The notes under the pieces were generated by a model. That model ran no database searches. It saw only the letters and a list, made by a program, of their open reading frames with translations, and was not told where the DNA came from. Of a stretch of DNA of 32,264 nt, positions 5,936-32,174 are shown piece after piece. Position numbers and translations under genes: made by a program. Numbering within the stretch: position 1 is the first letter of the stretch; each line of letters starts with the position of its first letter. The DNA is taken from NCBI RefSeq assembly GCF_011170085.1, contig NZ_BLLI01000018.1, forward strand, positions 1 to 32,264, in the 5' to 3' direction. The stretch comes from Pseudolactococcus hodotermopsidis. GTDB taxonomy: Bacteria; Bacillota; Bacilli; Lactobacillales; Streptococcaceae.

Positions 5936-7657
5936 ATGAGTCATGTGAAAATTACGGCGCTTGGTGGCGTGCGCGAGTTTGGTAAAAATATGTATGTTGT
6001 TGAGGTTGATGAGGTTATCTTTGTTTTGGATGCTGGCTTGAAATATCCTGAGACGGAGATGCTGGGGGTTGATTTTGTCATCCCTGATTTGACCTATTTG
6101 CTTGAAAATGCTGATCGTGTGGCAGGAATTTTCTTGACTCACGGTCATCCTGATTCGATTGGTGCTTTGCCTTATCTTTTAGCTGAGGTTGAAGTGCCTG
6201 TTTTTGGTAGTCAATTGACGATTGAACTTGCTAAAATCAATGTCAAAGGTTTTGATGGTAGCAAGAAATTTGATGATTTCCATATTGTTGACGAAACGAC
6301 TGAGATTGATTTTGGAACAGCTGTGATTTCATTTTTCTCAACAACACATACCATTCCTGAAAGTTTAGGAATTGTTGTGGGAACGCCTGATGGCAATATC
6401 GTTTATACAGGAGATTTCAAGTTTGACCCAGCAGTTGGCGAAGGGTACAAGACCAATATCAGTCGTTTGGCTGAAATTTCGTCGCAAGGTGTTTTGGCGT
6501 TACTGAGCGAATCGGCAAACGCCTTGTCTAGCGTGCAATCTGCTAGTGAACCTGAAATTTCTGATAAGATTTTTGATACAATTGCGGATTGGGAGGGGCG
6601 CGTGATTATTGCCTCAACTGCTGCTAATTTGGCGCGGATTCAACAAGTGATTGACAGCGCAATCAAAGTCGGGCGTCATATTGCTTTCACGGGGCATGAC
6701 TTGGATCAAATTGTCAAAACGGCGCGTGCGCTTGGTAAACTTCGCATTGACGATGATAAGATGATTATCAAGCCACAAGAAATCAAGAATTTTGAGGATA
6801 GCGAGCTTCTGATTTTGGAAACTGGGCGCATGGGTGAACCTTTGAAAACTTTGGCGGATATGGCGACTGGTCGTCATCGTTGGGTTAAAATCAAGGACGG
6901 CGACTTGGTTTATACGGTCACAAGTCCAACGATTGCCTATGAAACAGTTGTTGCGAAAACTGAGAACATTGTCTATCGTGCAGGTGGTATCATGAGAATG
7001 TTGTCAAGTGAGCTTAAAGTTTCGGGTCATGCTAATTCTCGCGATTTGCAGTTTTTACTAGACATTTTGCGCCCTAAAAATCTAGTGCCGGTTCAAGGCG
7101 AGTATCGTGAGTTGCAAGCGCATGCCGAACATGCCATGGCAGTTGGTATGTTACCTGAAAATATCTTCCTTGCCAAACGTGGCGAAGTGATTACTTTTGA
7201 TGACAATGGTAACTTAGAACCAAACGGCGTTGTTCCTGCGGAAAACGTGATGATTGATGGCTCAGGTGTTGGTGATATTGGAAATATTGTCTTACGTGAC
7301 CGTAAAATTCTCAGCGAAGAAGGTATTTTTATCGCAGTTATTACGATTTCTAAGCATGATAAAAAAATCATCAGCAAAACAAAAGTGCATACACGTGGCT
7401 TTGTTTATGTGAAAAATTCGCGTGATTTGATGAAAGAAGCAGCACTCAAAGTTGATGAAAAAGTCACACAGTATTTGGCTGGCGATAGCTTTGATTGGGC
7501 GGAAATCAAATCTGAAATTCGTGATGTTTTAGGTAAATTTCTCTTTGATCAAACCAAACGTCGTCCAGTTGTTTTGCCAGTTGTCATGGAAGTCCGCCAA
7601 AATGATTATCGCCAAAAACGTCATCCCAAACCTAAGAAAAAAGTGTCTAGTAATTAA
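5936..7657 (+). CDS. rnjB: Ribonuclease J2 (metallo-beta-lactamase/beta-CASP family)
   Basis: The RNase J family degrades and processes RNA and forms a J1/J2 complex in the cytosol. The 573 residues have the beta-lactamase core, the beta-CASP insert and a C-terminal domain. The metal-binding motif that is HxHxDH in active J1 reads HGHPDS here (residues 69-74), so the last histidine is missing. B. subtilis J2 is altered at the same place, which is why I call this J2 and not J1. The later motif SGHAN (363-367) also follows J2. Family knowledge says that J2 has weak activity of its own and stabilises or directs J1. The ATG follows TTGGAGAAAATTTA. A terminator follows at 7662-7687. Confidence 0.9.
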   Translation: MSHVKITALGGVREFGKNMYVVEVDEVIFVLDAGLKYPETEMLGVDFVIPDLTYLLENADRVAGIFLTHGHPDSIGALPYLLAEVEVPVFGSQLTIELAKINVKGFDGSKKFDDFHIVDETTEIDFGTAVISFFSTTHTIPESLGIVVGTPDGNIVYTGDFKFDPAVGEGYKTNISRLAEISSQGVLALLSESANALSSVQSASEPEISDKIFDTIADWEGRVIIASTAANLARIQQVIDSAIKVGRHIAFTGHDLDQIVKTARALGKLRIDDDKMIIKPQEIKNFEDSELLILETGRMGEPLKTLADMATGRHRWVKIKDGDLVYTVTSPTIAYETVVAKTENIVYRAGGIMRMLSSELKVSGHANSRDLQFLLDILRPKNLVPVQGEYRELQAHAEHAMAVGMLPENIFLAKRGEVITFDDNGNLEPNGVVPAENVMIDGSGVGDIGNIVLRDRKILSEEGIFIAVITISKHDKKIISKTKVHTRGFVYVKNSRDLMKEAALKVDEKVTQYLAGDSFDWAEIKSEIRDVLGKFLFDQTKRRPVVLPVVMEVRQNDYRQKRHPKPKKKVSSN

Positions 7658-27544: not shown

Positions 27545-27566
27545 TAGAGTAGTTTGCGTTAGAAGA

Positions 27567-27594
27567 AGTGATGAGGGAACTTGTCGCTTTTTTT
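27567..27594 (+). terminator. purL terminator
   Basis: AGTGATGAG pairs with CTTGTCGCT (three G-T pairs) around a GGAA tetraloop, followed by a run of T. Confidence 0.8.
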
Positions 27595-27601
27595 GTAAAT
27601 T

Positions 27602-27633
27602 TTGATGTGTGCTAACTTAAAAAATGATATAAT
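27602..27633 (+). promoter_or_regulatory. Promoter of the methyltransferase operon
   Basis: TGATATAAT at 27625-27633 is a perfect extended -10. TTGATG (27602-27607) lies 20 bp upstream, a little far for a -35. Confidence 0.55.
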
Positions 27634-27666
27634 TGAGGTAGCAAATACTTGACATGGAGAAATAAA

Positions 27667-27801
27667 ATGGTAGAATTATTTAGCCAACAGCCAACAGCCA
27701 ACAGAACGTTAGAAATAGCTCTTTTTGCAATACTTTTTTTAAACGTTCACAGCATTTTTGTGAGCGTTTTTCATATGTTTTTGGGGGTGTCTAATGGTTA
27801 G
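27667..27801 (+). CDS. Small hydrophobic leader ORF (44 aa) before the methyltransferase
   Basis: ATG 27667 follows a good ribosome binding site (GGAGA, 6 nt upstream). The peptide starts MVELFSQQPTANRTLEIALF and is mostly hydrophobic after residue 15. Near its start the DNA has three direct AGCCAAC heptamers (27684-27704). It ends eight bases into the methyltransferase gene, in another frame. A terminator hairpin lies inside it. It may be a regulatory leader peptide or translational coupler; it could also be a chance frame. Confidence 0.4.
   Translation: MVELFSQQPTANRTLEIALFAILFLNVHSIFVSVFHMFLGVSNG
27740..27771 (+). terminator. Hairpin terminator/attenuator in the leader of the methyltransferase operon
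   Basis: AAACGTTCAC and GTGAGCGTTT pair with one G-T pair around AGCATTTTT, and T residues follow. It lies after the operon promoter and before the methyltransferase start, so it would limit transcription of all three genes. Confidence 0.7.
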
Positions 27802-30535
27802 ACGTCCGATTACAGAAATTGAAAATGGGTTGCAAGAATTATTTGAAAAAGAGATAGTAATTCCTGGAGAATTTATTTATAATTTTTTGGCTTGGTATGA
27901 TATTCCTAAATCAACGCTAACACGTGCAAAAAATGAGAAAGAAATCAATCTTAAAATCAAAAATAAAATTCATTATGAATTAGTCAAAAATGGCGCAACG
28001 CCAGTTTCAGTTGTTACAAAAATTGAGCAAGAGATAAAAGGAAATCGGTCACAACCACGATTTATTATTGCGACAAACATCGTAGATTTTGCAGCTAAAG
28101 ATACTAAAACGCAAAATACTTTGACTATTCCTTTAATTGAATTGCCAGCAAAAGCTGATTTTTTCTTGCCATTAAATGGTATTGAAAAGGTTGAGTATGA
28201 GAAAGAAAATCCAGCCGATAGAAAAGCTGCTGATCGTTTTACAAAACTTTATGATACATTGATTAAAATAAATGAAGAAGCGACTGAAAAAGATTTCAAT
28301 GAATTTTTGATTCGTTTGTTGTTTTTGCTCTTTGCTGAAGATACGAATATTATGCCGAAAAGTATTTTTACAAATGCTATCAAAACTCGTACAGCGGTTG
28401 ATGGTAGTGATATGAATGGCATTATCAGTGATATTTTTAAATCGCTTGATGTTTTAACTAGAAACTCTGAAAAGGAATGGTTAAGGGCTTTTCCATATGT
28501 TAATGGTAAGCTGTTTTCTAAAGCTCATGTAAATTTGAAATTTAATGCAGTAACTAGGAAAATGATTCTTGAGGCTGGTGAGTTACTAGATTGGAATGAA
28601 ATCAATCCAGATATTTTAGGTTCAATGATTCAGACGGTTGCAAATGCTGAGCAACGTGCAGTTACTGGTATGCACTATACGAGTGTAGAAAATATCAAGA
28701 AACTTATCAAACCGTTATTTCTTGATGATTTGACAATGATTTATGATGAAATAGCAGTTAAGATAAGTGAAAATGAAGACAAGGAAATTACAGAAAAAAG
28801 TAAGCAAGAGAATCGTCGAACTTATGAGGAAAAATTAGAGGCGTTAATTGAACGAATTAGTAAGATTAAATTTTTCGACCCAGCCTGTGGCTCTGGTAAT
28901 TTTTTGATTATTACTTATAAAGAAATTCGTAGATTAGAAATCAATATTTTGAAAACCTTAGGCGATTTAAGGATAAAGAAGAAGGAAGAGCATGCTAAAC
29001 AAGGGAACATGTTAAAAACATCAGCTATTTCTCTTAATAAATTTTATGGCATTGAGTTAGATGATTTTGCTCATGAAGTGGCTAGACTTTCTCTTTGGAT
29101 AGCGGAACATCAGATGAACGTTGAGATGACTGAAACCTTGGCAGATTATCAGCCTAACTTATTGCCTTTAAAAGATGCGGGGCATATTATTCAAGGTAAT
29201 TCGTTGCGGATTGATTGGAATGAAGCTGTGCCACATACAGCTGATGAAGAATTATATATTATGGGGAATCCGCCTTATATTGGGGCACGAAAAATGGATT
29301 CAAATCAAAAAAGGGAAATTGCAAAGGTCTTTGAGAGTTACTTGTTAAAAACTGGAGATTTAGATTATATTTCAGGGTGGTTTATGAAAATTGCAATTTC
29401 AGTAGAGAATACTAATATAAAAGCTGCGATTGTAAGTACAAATTCTGTGGTACAAGGCTCTCAGGCGTCTTTATTATGGAATACTATTTTTAATAAAACA
29501 GAAGCTGAAATTAATTTTGCTTATTCCTCTTTTAAGTGGGGAAATAGTGCTAAACATAATGCAGGCGTTACTGTAGTAATAGTTGGAATAGTCAATAATA
29601 AATATAAAGGGAACAAAGTATTATTTGATACAATAGGTGGAAAGATTGTTAAACAAATCAATGCCTATTTAGTTGATGGTCCTTTAATAACAGTTAAGAA
29701 AAGTACTAGTCAAATTTCTAATCTTCCAGAAATGTTATCAGGTGATATGCCTAACGATGGAGGGAACTTAATCGCAGATAGAATAGATGAGTTTGTAGAT
29801 ATTTTCGAGAGTAAGAAATATTCTAGTATAATTAAGGAATTTATCGGTTCACGTGAATTTTTGAATGATAAAAAAAGATATACACTATGGATTTCTGAAA
29901 ATGACTTGGAATTGGCTATTTCTAATACCAAAATTAAAAATAGAATAGATAGAGTTAGGAAATTAAGAGAAAACAGTAGCAGAAAAGTAACAAGAGAAAT
30001 GTCAGATACTCCTTACAGATTTGGTGAAATTCGGCATAAAAATTTTGACTATATTTTTATTCCGCAAGTATCTTCTGAAAATAGGGATTATGTTCCAATG
30101 GGGATACTAGATAAAAATGTTATCACTGCTTCTCCTAACTTTGCAATCTACGATGCACCAATCTGGCTTTTAGGTTTATTAGAATCTCGGATGCACATGA
30201 CGTGGCTACGTGCTGTTGGCGGGAAATTGAAAACTGATTACCGTTATTCTGCTGGCTTAGTTTACAATACATTTCCAGTGCCAGAACTTTCAACACAACG
30301 AAAAAATCAAATGGAAAATCAAATTTTCGAGATTTTGGATCTTCGTGAAGAAATTGGTGGCACGCTTGCTGAACTTTACAATAACAAGACAATGCCTAAG
30401 CGTTTGCGTGAGGCGCACGAAGCACTTGATAGAATTGTTGAGCGAGCTTATCGTCGTGATACACCATTTGTCAGTGATGAAGAACGCTTGAGTGTTTTAT
30501 TAAATATGTATCAGGAGATGACGAAAGATGACTAA
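27794..30535 (+). CDS. MmeI-like adenine DNA methyltransferase, without a visible nuclease site
   Basis: The 913 residues show S-adenosylmethionine motif I DPACGSGNF (about 361-369) and motif IV NPPY (492-495), so it is a gamma-type N6-adenine methylase. The helical part with FLIRLLFLLFAEDTNI near residue 175 and a late target-recognition region (about 640-820) match the MmeI layout of type IIG restriction-modification enzymes. In that family the N-terminal 150 residues hold a PD-(D/E)XK nuclease. Here the end of this domain (RFIIATNIVDF, PLIELP) is recognisable, but I find no D...ExK pair, so the protein probably only modifies DNA. The ribosome binding site is GGGGGTG. It overlaps the next gene by 8 bp and starts a three-gene operon. 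Its target sequence cannot be read. Confidence 0.83.
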   Translation: MVRRPITEIENGLQELFEKEIVIPGEFIYNFLAWYDIPKSTLTRAKNEKEINLKIKNKIHYELVKNGATPVSVVTKIEQEIKGNRSQPRFIIATNIVDFAAKDTKTQNTLTIPLIELPAKADFFLPLNGIEKVEYEKENPADRKAADRFTKLYDTLIKINEEATEKDFNEFLIRLLFLLFAEDTNIMPKSIFTNAIKTRTAVDGSDMNGIISDIFKSLDVLTRNSEKEWLRAFPYVNGKLFSKAHVNLKFNAVTRKMILEAGELLDWNEINPDILGSMIQTVANAEQRAVTGMHYTSVENIKKLIKPLFLDDLTMIYDEIAVKISENEDKEITEKSKQENRRTYEEKLEALIERISKIKFFDPACGSGNFLIITYKEIRRLEINILKTLGDLRIKKKEEHAKQGNMLKTSAISLNKFYGIELDDFAHEVARLSLWIAEHQMNVEMTETLADYQPNLLPLKDAGHIIQGNSLRIDWNEAVPHTADEELYIMGNPPYIGARKMDSNQKREIAKVFESYLLKTGDLDYISGWFMKIAISVENTNIKAAIVSTNSVVQGSQASLLWNTIFNKTEAEINFAYSSFKWGNSAKHNAGVTVVIVGIVNNKYKGNKVLFDTIGGKIVKQINAYLVDGPLITVKKSTSQISNLPEMLSGDMPNDGGNLIADRIDEFVDIFESKKYSSIIKEFIGSREFLNDKKRYTLWISENDLELAISNTKIKNRIDRVRKLRENSSRKVTREMSDTPYRFGEIRHKNFDYIFIPQVSSENRDYVPMGILDKNVITASPNFAIYDAPIWLLGLLESRMHMTWLRAVGGKLKTDYRYSAGLVYNTFPVPELSTQRKNQMENQIFEILDLREEIGGTLAELYNNKTMPKRLREAHEALDRIVERAYRRDTPFVSDEERLSVLLNMYQEMTKDD

Positions 30536-31256
30536 ATTATCAAATGTTGCCTTAAATACTGTAACAGATGCTTTATTAAGTTGTTTTCCAAATTTTAGAG
30601 ATATTGACCTTATTAAACACATGTCTTTATTTGCTTTAGAAAATGACTTTGACTTGAAACATACTAGAACTAAGGCAGATGTGCCTATCAGAACCTTTAT
30701 TTTTGATAATTTAGCCGAAATGGACGGAAAAAATCAAAAGTTATATTTATTAGAAACTTCTAAAATCATTGAAACGACTTTAGGAAAATATGATTCAATA
30801 ACATTTTCAGAAATTATCAAAAGAGCCATAAAGACGATAAATAGTGAAAGCGAGCGTAAAGTAAGAAAAGAAGTTGATAGAACACTTGATATTTATCCAG
30901 AAGTTAAATCTGAATGGTTGAAAGTTTATGATAAAGTAAATTCGGGTGAGAATCGTTATGCTTTAGATAGCGCACGACTGAGCTTGGAATTACTTTTAAA
31001 AACTATTTTCAATAATGAAAAATCATTAGAAAATCAACAAAAAAATATCGGTGAAGCTTTAAAACAGAAATCTGTTTCAAAGGAATTTATTACTATCATA
31101 ACACAAAATTTAAGACAGTATGCAGAACTACAAAATGAAAATGCTAAACATAAGGCAAAATCAGACGATTGGGAAGAGTTGGAAGTGGAGACGATTCTTA
31201 ATCAAACATGGCTACTGATGAAATATTTGATAACAAAACTAGGAAGAAGAGAATAA
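30528..31256 (+). CDS. Unknown protein with HEPN/Abi_C-like C-terminal domain
   Basis: I do not recognise a named family. The 242 residues are entirely helical in character and highly charged, without membrane segments. From about residue 124 the sequence (YALDSARLSLELLLKTIF, then LRQYAELQNENAKHK) resembles the C-terminal domain of abortive-infection proteins and HEPN domains. HEPN ribonucleases carry R[N/D/H]xxxxH; here the corresponding site is QNENAKH (Q202, N203, H208), so the arginine is replaced. It could be a degenerate ribonuclease or a protein-binding subunit. It overlaps the methylase gene by 8 bp and abuts the helicase gene (TAAATG), so the three act together. Confidence 0.55.
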   Translation: MTKLSNVALNTVTDALLSCFPNFRDIDLIKHMSLFALENDFDLKHTRTKADVPIRTFIFDNLAEMDGKNQKLYLLETSKIIETTLGKYDSITFSEIIKRAIKTINSESERKVRKEVDRTLDIYPEVKSEWLKVYDKVNSGENRYALDSARLSLELLLKTIFNNEKSLENQQKNIGEALKQKSVSKEFITIITQNLRQYAELQNENAKHKAKSDDWEELEVETILNQTWLLMKYLITKLGRRE

Positions 31257-32174
31257 ATGCTAGATAATCTATTTGAAATAAAATATGATACAACTGGGAC
31301 AAGTGTCAAGACAAATAATCTTGGTATGCGTGAAATGCAAGAAAGAGTTTATCAGCGAAGAAATAGTCAATATCTATTAGTAAAAGCACCACCAGCCTCT
31401 GGTAAATCACGTGCTTTGATGTTTGTAGCGCTTGATAAACTTCATCATCAAGGTATCAAAAAAGTAATTATTGCTGTACCAGAACGCTCAATTGGCAAGT
31501 CTTTTCGCAATACAAAACTATCTGAAAATGGTTATTTCTGGGATTGGCATGTTAAACCGGAAAATAATCTGACTATTAATGGAACAGATAAGAGTAAAGT
31601 GAAACAGTTTGTGGATTTCATGCGTTCGACTGATTCAAATGATAATATTTTAATTTCAACTCATGCGACATTGCGCTTTGCTTTTGAGAAACTAGATGAT
31701 AGTGTGTTTGATGAGACATTAGTCGCTATTGATGAATTTCATCATGTTTCTCGTGATGATAATTCTGTTTTGGGAAATGCTTTGAGAAGTATTTTAACAA
31801 ATTCTAGTGCGCATATCTTAGCTATGACAGGGTCATATTTCCGAGGAGATGAAACACCAATCTTAGAAGCGGCAGATGAAATAAAATTTGATAAAATTAC
31901 TTACACCTATTATGAGCAGCTTGAGGGGTATCAATATCTAAAAAGTTTTGCTATGGGTTATAGTTTTTATCGTGGTCGTTATACTGAGGCGTTAGATGAT
32001 GTGATTGATACTAATAAAAAGATGATTATTCACATTCCAAATGTAAATTCTGGCGAATCTACCAAAGATAAATACGATGAAGTAGCGCGCGTTATAGATA
32101 CGATAGGTAATGTTGAGGAAACAAATGAGAATAATATTAGACTTGTTCCTAAACCATCGCTCTTTCAAAATTGA
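31257..32174 (+). pseudogene. DEAD/DEAH-like helicase, truncated by an IS element
   Basis: Residues 1-294 are native. They include Walker A as APPASGKS (44-51), Walker B DEFHH (159-163, a DExH variant) and motif III-like AMTGS (189-193). These belong to the first RecA-like domain of a superfamily 2 helicase or translocase, as found in restriction and other phage-defence complexes. The second RecA domain has only begun when the IS element starts at about 32140. The last eleven or so codons (LVPKPSLFQN) are read from the IS end and stop at 32172-32174. A working helicase cannot be made unless the remainder is rejoined. Confidence 0.8.

Follow-up and report, generated by a model that had tools for sequence, protein, structure and literature searches.

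Three tightly packed genes at the end of a contig of Pseudolactococcus hodotermopsidis (Streptococcaceae; RefSeq assembly GCF_011170085.1, contig NZ_BLLI01000018.1, hereafter C18) raise the question of whether a DNA methylase, a small HEPN-like protein and a superfamily 2 (SF2) helicase can form a defence system of their own, or whether they belong to a system that already has a name. The window, i.e. the whole stretch of DNA that was analysed, comprises 32,264 nucleotides (nt) and corresponds to this entire contig, in a genome of 2.30 Mb distributed over 138 contigs. An original prediction, made from the sequence alone, had held that the layout matched no known system. The locus is, however, very probably a restriction-modification operon of the dnmA-yeeB-yeeC type, in which a further gene, termed here the guest, is embedded and whose helicase gene carries an insertion sequence. 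A supposed new system is in this way replaced by a defined and testable question. The features on which the argument depends are as follows (ORF, open reading frame; aa, amino acids).

27794–30535, plus strand: DnmA/YeeA-like adenine DNA methyltransferase of the MmeI family, 913 aa (ORF, domains and motifs)
30528–31256, plus strand: embedded guest gene of the PDC-S32 family, 242 aa (ORF and PADLOC profile)
31257–32174, plus strand: YeeB-like DEAD/DEAH helicase, N-terminal fragment, ORF of 305 aa (ORF, domain and relatives)
32136–32138, no strand: ATT, 3-bp target-site duplication, also present beside the inverted repeat on the side of a second contig, C5
32138–32264, no strand: end of an insertion sequence, with an exact 20-bp terminal inverted repeat at 32138–32157, after which the contig ends (repeat search)

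Identity of the operon

That three real genes form a defence-type operon has been borne out. The methylase and guest genes overlap by 8 nt, whereas the guest and helicase genes, described beforehand as overlapping too, directly abut; position 27602, given as the start, is not a feature of the operon, whose first gene begins at 27794. With the continuation on C5 included, the order of the genes is MmeI-like methylase, PDC-S32 guest with a predicted HEPN fold, helicase and GIY-YIG nuclease, the helicase being divided between C18 and C5 and the nuclease lying on C5. The components of a dnmA-yeeB-yeeC cluster were all found, namely a methylase of the MmeI family without an N-terminal nuclease motif, an SF2 helicase in the same orientation and a GIY-YIG/T5orf172 nuclease (on C5). 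An inspection of the neighbours of intact relatives, which had been suggested as a check, gave a consistent answer: related loci display the order methylase, helicase, nuclease, and the nuclease lies downstream of the helicase in 73 of the 78 surveyed loci (24/24 genome, 10/11 plasmid and 39/43 viral-contig loci). The relatives inspected on plasmids have the methylase, helicase and GIY-YIG nuclease in the same order, with the exception of L004, whose record ends within the helicase. Searched at an E-value of 1e-40, the order has helicase relatives in 20 of 395 genomes, the class sample in 9 of 398 and the phylum sample in 1 of 388; this genome is part of all three counts, and there is overlap among the samples. 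On plasmids, the helicase fragment is matched in 262 of 72,556 records, and clusters of this type also occur at 43 viral-contig loci.

In Bacillus subtilis, dnmA-yeeB-yeeC is reported as a methylase-helicase-nuclease cluster whose DnmA produces N6-methyladenine (m6A) at GACGAG, on one strand of a non-palindromic site (PMC7261158, PMC9973331), and the suggestion has been made that unnamed, uncharacterized neighbours of dnmA could belong to the locus (PMC9973331). The likeness to this cluster consists in the three core genes, their order, the methylase without a nuclease motif and the T5orf172 domain as named for YeeC; the differences are the additional PDC-S32 gene between methylase and helicase and the insertion sequence inside the helicase. 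The idea of a layout outside all known systems is therefore given up, as the set largely matches one that has a name.

Other systems fit less well. A type I restriction system includes a separate HsdS, whereas here the recognition domain lies inside the methylase, and in the relatives inspected no gene annotated as hsdS interrupts the operon. Tested as a PglX-type methylase of bacteriophage exclusion (BREX), the protein scores no more than 29.7 bits, where the curated cut-off is 500. The defence island system associated with restriction-modification (DISARM) was rejected as well: there is a partial similarity of the methylase to DrmMI, and neither DrmA nor DrmB matches were obtained for helicase, guest or nuclease. 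As an observation on the nuclease gene, YeeC is split into ORFs of about 96 aa and about 290–305 aa in Streptococcus and some Gram-negative relatives (L042–L045, L053, L072, L008, L009 and L172), an arrangement that is apparently conserved.

The interrupted helicase gene

The third gene does encode an SF2 helicase, as had been read, albeit one into which, at the end of the contig, an insertion sequence has been placed. Its ORF in the window has about 293 native residues followed by about 12 residues that read into the insertion sequence and then a stop. The fragment, part of a helicase of about 650 aa, is 51–76% identical to 11 relatives and corresponds to residues 5–291 in relative numbering; residues 295–646 are encoded on contig C5 (59347–60378, minus strand), near the end of that contig. 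The gene next to this second half encodes the GIY-YIG/T5orf172 nuclease, a protein of 398 aa in which the domains T5orf172 and MUG113 were recognised. The same 20-bp inverted repeat stands directly outside the helicase sequence at both contig ends, with ATT adjoining. The split helicase, the shared repeat and the ATT at both ends are explained by a single insertion into the helicase gene. For the tail of the window, 40 places were scored of 59 candidates in the same genome, the tail itself included; another copy of the insertion sequence, on contig C3, encodes HTH_Tnp_4 and DDE transposase ORFs. With the helicase broken by the insertion sequence, restriction in this strain is probably dead; what remains is probably an orphan m6A methylase. 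The reading frames are otherwise open, and the Walker and DEFHH motifs of the helicase are kept.

The methylase

The domains of the methylase are arranged as follows.

27869–28267, plus strand: MmeI_N region, aa 26–158, with a predicted PD-(D/E)XK-like fold and without a conserved catalytic triad (Pfam, alignment and model)
28817–29626, plus strand: methyltransferase domain, aa 342–611 (MmeI_Mtase, 9.8e-98)
29678–30289, plus strand: target recognition domain, aa 629–832 (Pfam)

All five Pfam domains of MmeI are present, the best being MmeI_Mtase, together with the motifs DPACGSGNF and NPPY, and MmeI itself (5hr4, E 3e-156, aligned from residue 84) is the closest solved structure and the only one below E 0.001. 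The description of an MmeI-like methylase without a recognisable PD-(D/E)XK site has held: in an alignment of 25 sequences (A4), no conserved D/E/K triad was read in the N-terminus, and no D...ExK pattern was seen among the invariant or near-invariant columns (F27, L125, G129, I9, T94, A101, F123, F124, E138, D142 and A145). The literature likewise describes DnmA as devoid of the nuclease motif of MmeI (PMC7261158). Structure prediction, a further check suggested beforehand, yielded a PD-(D/E)XK-like fold for this region: in a model of the N-terminal 169 residues built from the 25 sequences (predicted local distance difference test, pLDDT, 80.8), a second structure aligner placed DrdV, TT1808, HsdR and BpuSI first at modest Z-scores of 6.2–4.8, and Foldseek placed histidyl-tRNA synthetases first and DrdV at rank 5. 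Although PADLOC labels the protein IIG by overall similarity, and the entire methylase fits the domain set of MmeI and other type IIL/IIG enzymes, it differs from them in having no conserved nuclease triad and in standing beside separate helicase and nuclease genes that presumably do the cutting. A type IIG/IIL enzyme, with nuclease site and methylase in one polypeptide, was rejected for lack of that triad.

Two plasmid copies of the methylase gene have an unusual form. In Ligilactobacillus salivarius (L007, 6304–8994) it is in pieces, with a segment of about 100 codons that occurs a further time, in inverted orientation, between the pieces, possibly an invertible segment or else damage, and in Proteus terrae (L008, 7026–9002) it has no 5' part and lies beside a copy of IS26 in a drug-resistance region.

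Family and predicted fold of the guest protein

The guest matches the PADLOC profile PDC-S32 (PDLC04998) at 9.6e-30, and the same profile is matched by all 40 aligned relatives. Two features of the protein are of importance.

30879–31253, plus strand: C-terminal domain of predicted HEPN fold, aa 118–242
31131–31151, plus strand: QNENAKH, aa 202–208, a non-canonical HEPN motif in which N203, K207 and H208 are invariant in 40 sequences

For the window protein, no Pfam family was matched at E 1, on which ground membership of Abi_C was rejected, and there was no NCBIfam match; a search of solved structures by its sequence returned nothing credible. Across the 40 relatives, an E-value limit of 0.05 brings up 22 Pfam families, none in more than two members and the best at 0.0013, a chance-like pattern that includes HEPN PF05168 in one member (0.03) and DUF4145 in another (0.045). 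With Pfam evidence of this kind, the HEPN assignment rests on the predicted fold. Structures were compared with an AlphaFold2 model of the guest (pLDDT 88.8). The first seven Foldseek rows are HEPN structures (probability up to 0.99, E 0.87 or worse), two of which, 1ufb and 2q00, are not titled as such. TT1696 is here presumed to be a HEPN protein. The ten best rows of VIA-align (Z 11.1–8.0) are all HEPN or HEPN-bearing structures, e.g. sacsin HEPN (11.1), AF_0298 (10.3), AbiA (8.8), an MNT-HEPN toxin (8.2) and LsoA (8.0), and they match guest spans that begin at residues 105–119 and end at 239–242. Helical bundles with a Z below 13 may share merely a common arrangement; the guest is nevertheless taken as HEPN, since the top structural rows are HEPN throughout. 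2q00, AbiA and LsoA are among the proteins listed as HEPN in a published survey (PMC3710099). The C-terminal half of the guest, about residues 105–242, is accordingly predicted to adopt a HEPN fold, which was the outcome of the structure prediction recommended for the 242-aa protein.

The motif itself is of another form than that of HEPN ribonucleases (RNases). Within QNxxxKH, N203, K207 and H208 are found in 40/40 aligned members and Q202 in 36/40; arginine occupies the motif position in none of the 40 (Q in 36, N in 3, H in 1), and the RNase motif Rx4-6H is thus absent. R150, E154, N203, K207 and H208 are invariant both in a first alignment (A1), of 12 sequences chosen without any sequence pattern, and in the larger one (A2), which consists of the window protein and 39 of 62 loci from an alignment-based search, 23 having been excluded by choice as longer, shorter or near-copies. 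The 62 loci were picked by a pattern over residues 160–170, so that the invariance of N163 and S166–Q170 (SLENQ) in A2 is partly built in, whereas R150, L151, E154, N203, K207 and H208 fall outside that pattern. The HEPN-like reading is supported by the predicted fold, and the degeneracy ascribed to the motif is, across the 40 aligned members, a feature of the whole family and not decay of this copy. In this manner PDC-S32, an unvalidated candidate family, is given a fold, by prediction, together with several residues that do not vary.

A cargo slot between methylase and helicase

The place occupied by the guest is not used by PDC-S32 only. Extra ORFs of 100 aa or longer were counted at both junctions. 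The one between methylase and helicase holds such an ORF in 17 of 69 loci (the window and 16 of 68 surveyed ones, i.e. 6/24 further genome loci, 2/11 plasmid loci and 8/33 viral-contig loci), compared with 0 of 73 at the helicase-nuclease junction (0/24, 0/10 and 0/39 in the same order of sources); the survey mixes related loci, and the Fisher p of 1.5e-6 for 17/69 against 0/73 ignores this relatedness. When loci are clustered at 90% helicase identity, some member carries cargo in 14 of the 46 clusters with a visible junction. Loci were collected through the helicase or the methylase, five of them (L042–L046) through guest and helicase searches, and the 62 loci of the guest alignment search were excluded from the count. 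Ten of the 43 viral loci were dropped for this junction, the C-terminus of their methylase being unseen; in one of these, L166, a truncated methylase is followed by a PDDEXK_4 ORF. PDC-S32 occupies the junction in 7/69 loci, namely the window, L003 and L042–L046, and the other contents are diverse.

L126, 2618–4501, a Lactobacillales genome: SLATT effector with two transmembrane segments plus SMODS/AGS_C cyclase, i.e. a pair of a cyclic oligonucleotide-based anti-phage signalling system (CBASS)
L004, 8225–8977: unknown of 250 aa with RNASSH, which fits Rx4H; no Pfam or PADLOC family match
L156, 276–1109: unknown with RDFRNYIH, which fits Rx6H from its first arginine; no Pfam or PADLOC family match
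L141: FRG plus DUF3800
L152: RhuM
L153 and its near-copy L173: DUF1016/YhcG nuclease
L146: CoiA-like protein
L142 and L150: unknowns

The FRG, RhuM and DUF1016 proteins themselves match PDC families. The methylase of L126 consists of two separate ORFs. In L142, the slot protein of 262 aa (6216–7004), which has no Pfam match, looks on visual inspection, with YIDxLG close to its start, like the gene behind a solo PDC-S32 gene in two alphaproteobacterial loci (L057, 10660–11475; L108, 10363–11178).

Closely related operons differ cleanly in the cassette. The Enterococcus cecorum locus L046, which has PDC-S32, is 89.7% identical over helicase and nuclease to L114, which has none, and 79.7% identical in the last 487 bp of the methylase; against L113, also without PDC-S32, the values are 86.4% on the helicase/nuclease side and 76.7% at the methylase end. 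The Lactobacillus amylovorus plasmids L003 and L004 carry different guests; their identity is 92.5% for the first part of the methylase, falls to 79.4% over the final 354 bp of that gene and reaches 96.2% for the helicase. L152 has RhuM where L145, L149 and L151 have 91 nt. Across the compared pairs, identity is 75–81% in the last 350–490 bp of the methylase and 86–96% on the helicase side; in each pair a methylase stretch in the region of the recognition domain fails to align at the DNA level, which leaves a conserved block of about 350–490 bp between that stretch and the slot. Given its presence in 7/69 junctions and such pairs, the guest is, by comparison of sequences, an optional embedded cargo of the dnmA-yeeB-yeeC operon.

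Distribution and phylogeny of PDC-S32

Within the genus, the guest is present in one of 12 genomes, which is the present one. The PDC-S32 profile is matched in 13 of 395 genomes of the order, two of them (G277 and G325) by the N-terminal part only, and in none of 14 control genomes. A query of genome contigs with the single guest protein found none, as did a guest search of viral contigs; the alignment-based search of named genomes instead gave the 62 loci mentioned above, six of which are flanked by dnmA on one side and yeeB on the other (Streptococcus sp. 121, two S. suis, S. cuniculipharyngis, E. cecorum and a Pseudogracilibacillus metagenome-assembled genome). Among the other 56, those with visible neighbours look solo and come from Bacteroidota, Pseudomonadota and others. 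In the tree of the family, all nine embedded proteins share a supported branch (99/98) with two solo ones, and the embedded/solo label has to change three times on the tree, compared with 8.4 times on average after shuffling. PDC-S32 would thus have entered dnm operons rarely, stayed there and later been lost or exchanged. As to the solo genes L039–L041 and L049, three genomes have them among conjugation-type genes, and one lies about 3 kb from a Cas9-like ORF, the neighbours having been named by reading ORFs rather than by search.

Possible function of the guest and competing explanations

Neither the core cluster nor the embedding of defence genes is new, and PDC-S32 is already on record as a candidate family; in the open-access literature searched, no description of a slot in dnmA-yeeB-yeeC or of a HEPN fold in PDC-S32 was found, and a search on the name PDC-S32 gave nothing. 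The explanation favoured for the locus as a whole, and held to be somewhat probable, is that of a split dnm operon which in its intact form performs restriction and which carries a guest of the guard type. In the intact system, the methylase would place m6A on a single strand of a non-palindromic site, as extrapolated from B. subtilis DnmA. On unmarked DNA, it would serve as a specificity factor that brings in, or gives licence to, the helicase and the GIY-YIG nuclease, which would then translocate and cleave in a manner that may resemble a type I enzyme, as proposed in the literature; Morgan et al. (2009) are cited for such a type I-like enzyme in the literature on B. subtilis DnmA. The guest would form another layer of defence: it would stay silent as long as the restriction complex is intact, and inhibition of the complex by a phage would allow it to block growth through its HEPN domain.

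This last part follows the example of PrrC in the EcoprrI operon, a HEPN RNase inside a type Ic operon that is reported to be kept silent by the complex and released by Stp of phage T4 (PMC3710099, PMC12707154). Both are HEPN-domain proteins (the guest by prediction) encoded within a restriction operon with methylase and motor genes; the guest, however, has 242 aa, no ABC ATPase and no RxxxxH, and that it would guard the complex as PrrC does is, on this analogy, a credible idea that stops somewhat short of being probable. Other defence genes have been described within defence operons, e.g. DarTG2, flanked by hsdS and hsdR in a type I operon (PMC12255303), and TgvAB inside another, where it protects when expressed alone (PMC11411939), and the PDC families are candidates obtained from such guilt-by-embedding (PMC10855318, PMC12988326). 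PDC-S32 is a candidate of this sort, with the difference that the host operon is of the dnmA-yeeB-yeeC kind and was seen with cargo only at the methylase-helicase junction. In its widest form, the proposal would make this junction an exchangeable guard slot, in which unrelated abortive-infection modules are co-translated, silenced by the complex and released by phage, with specificity domain and guard swapped around a conserved methylase block; the modules would be a PDC-S32 HEPN protein with a new QN...KH active site, another HEPN-like protein, a CBASS pair, FRG, RhuM and DUF1016. So broad a scheme is considered improbable.

Several explanations compete with that of a guard, and they are not mutually exclusive. 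The guest could be an independent single-gene module of phage defence that shares nothing but the promoter, the junction being a landing place without mechanistic coupling and arising, e.g. as a by-product of recombination that swaps the specificity domain of the methylase. This stands at the same level of credibility as a PrrC-like guard: dnm genes are found at merely 6 of the 62 PDC-S32 loci, the slot accepts modules as unrelated as a CBASS pair, FRG plus DUF3800, RhuM, DUF1016 and a CoiA-like protein, the recognition-domain stretch differs in the same pairs of operons, and TgvAB from a type I operon protects by itself (PMC11411939). Yet cargo is confined to one of two junctions (17/69 against 0/73), the embedded PDC-S32 proteins of Streptococcus, Enterococcus, Lactobacillus and Bacillaceae lie with two solo ones on one supported branch, as co-inheritance predicts, and TgvAB alone is reported to give 10–100-fold less protection than the entire cluster against several phages (PMC11411939). 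Guard or hitchhiker can be told apart by swaps, for which natural pairs of related operons with the guest, without it or with a different one are available. A rather unlikely alternative makes the guest a non-catalytic HEPN protein that binds a nucleotide, RNA or the complex and regulates restriction or protects the host instead of being a toxin; the absence of the arginine from all 40 aligned members and the view that HEPN families without the motif bind RNA (PMC3710099) fit it, but the five residues invariant in both alignments look like a site under strong selection, and the apparently solo copies speak against a pure regulator of dnmA-yeeB-yeeC.

It is somewhat doubtful, though less so, that the whole locus is a decaying relic, in which the methylase has survived by chance or for a role in gene regulation and the remaining genes are dead. 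The interrupted helicase points in that direction, as do the restriction of the guest to one of 12 genomes of the genus and the 11 other congeners, in which no dnm gene was found within 1.5 kb beside purL (comparison L175–L186). In B. subtilis, deletion of dnmA is reported to leave plasmid uptake unchanged, deletions in the cluster leave sensitivity to three phages unchanged (PMC9973331, PMC7261158), and the cluster was suggested to be a non-functional relic (PMC9973331). Against decay, the frames other than at the insertion remain open with helicase, methylase and PDC-S32 motifs kept, and a homologous cluster of Vibrio crassostreae affects sensitivity to some phages (Piel et al. as cited in PMC9973331); clusters of this type, which occur on plasmids and viral contigs, thus include one judged to be a relic and another with an effect on phages. 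The proposal that opened the question, i.e. that methylase, HEPN protein and helicase cooperate as a separate, nuclease-less system, has become highly improbable. The adjacency of the three genes in the window speaks for it, but it is contradicted by the GIY-YIG gene on C5 and by the position of that gene downstream of the helicase in most relatives, and the notion of helicase and HEPN protein as joint effectors loses ground as the operon has its own nuclease and PDC-S32 is present at 7/69 junctions only.

For the favoured explanation of an operon with a guard-type guest, a number of points have to be counted on the opposite side, including the B. subtilis deletions. No Foldseek match of the guest reached E 0.001, the best HEPN row being at 0.87, and RNase activity of a protein without the HEPN arginine is uncertain. 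No dnm gene was found beside PDC-S32 in 56 of the 62 loci, some of them on short contigs, so that the family seems to need no restriction partner, and the window protein itself sits on a long branch (2.49). The adjacency of C18 and C5 is deduced from the ends of the insertion sequence. Synteny at purL in the congeners gives no help, no empty site having been found since the purL flank differs.

Genome setting

One further feature lies upstream of the operon.

27649–27676, plus strand: best promoter-like match, TTGACA-16-TAGAAT with TG, 5' of the methylase; consensus only (11/12 positions)

As evidence this site is weak, with 22 sites of such quality found against 22.0 expected. The flank beside purL (window 27545–27793) varies among congeners and looks like a variable integration site. 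At the opposite end of the contig, positions 2–1543 hold a partial ORF for a MucBP/Muc_B2 surface protein, which is open at the contig end.

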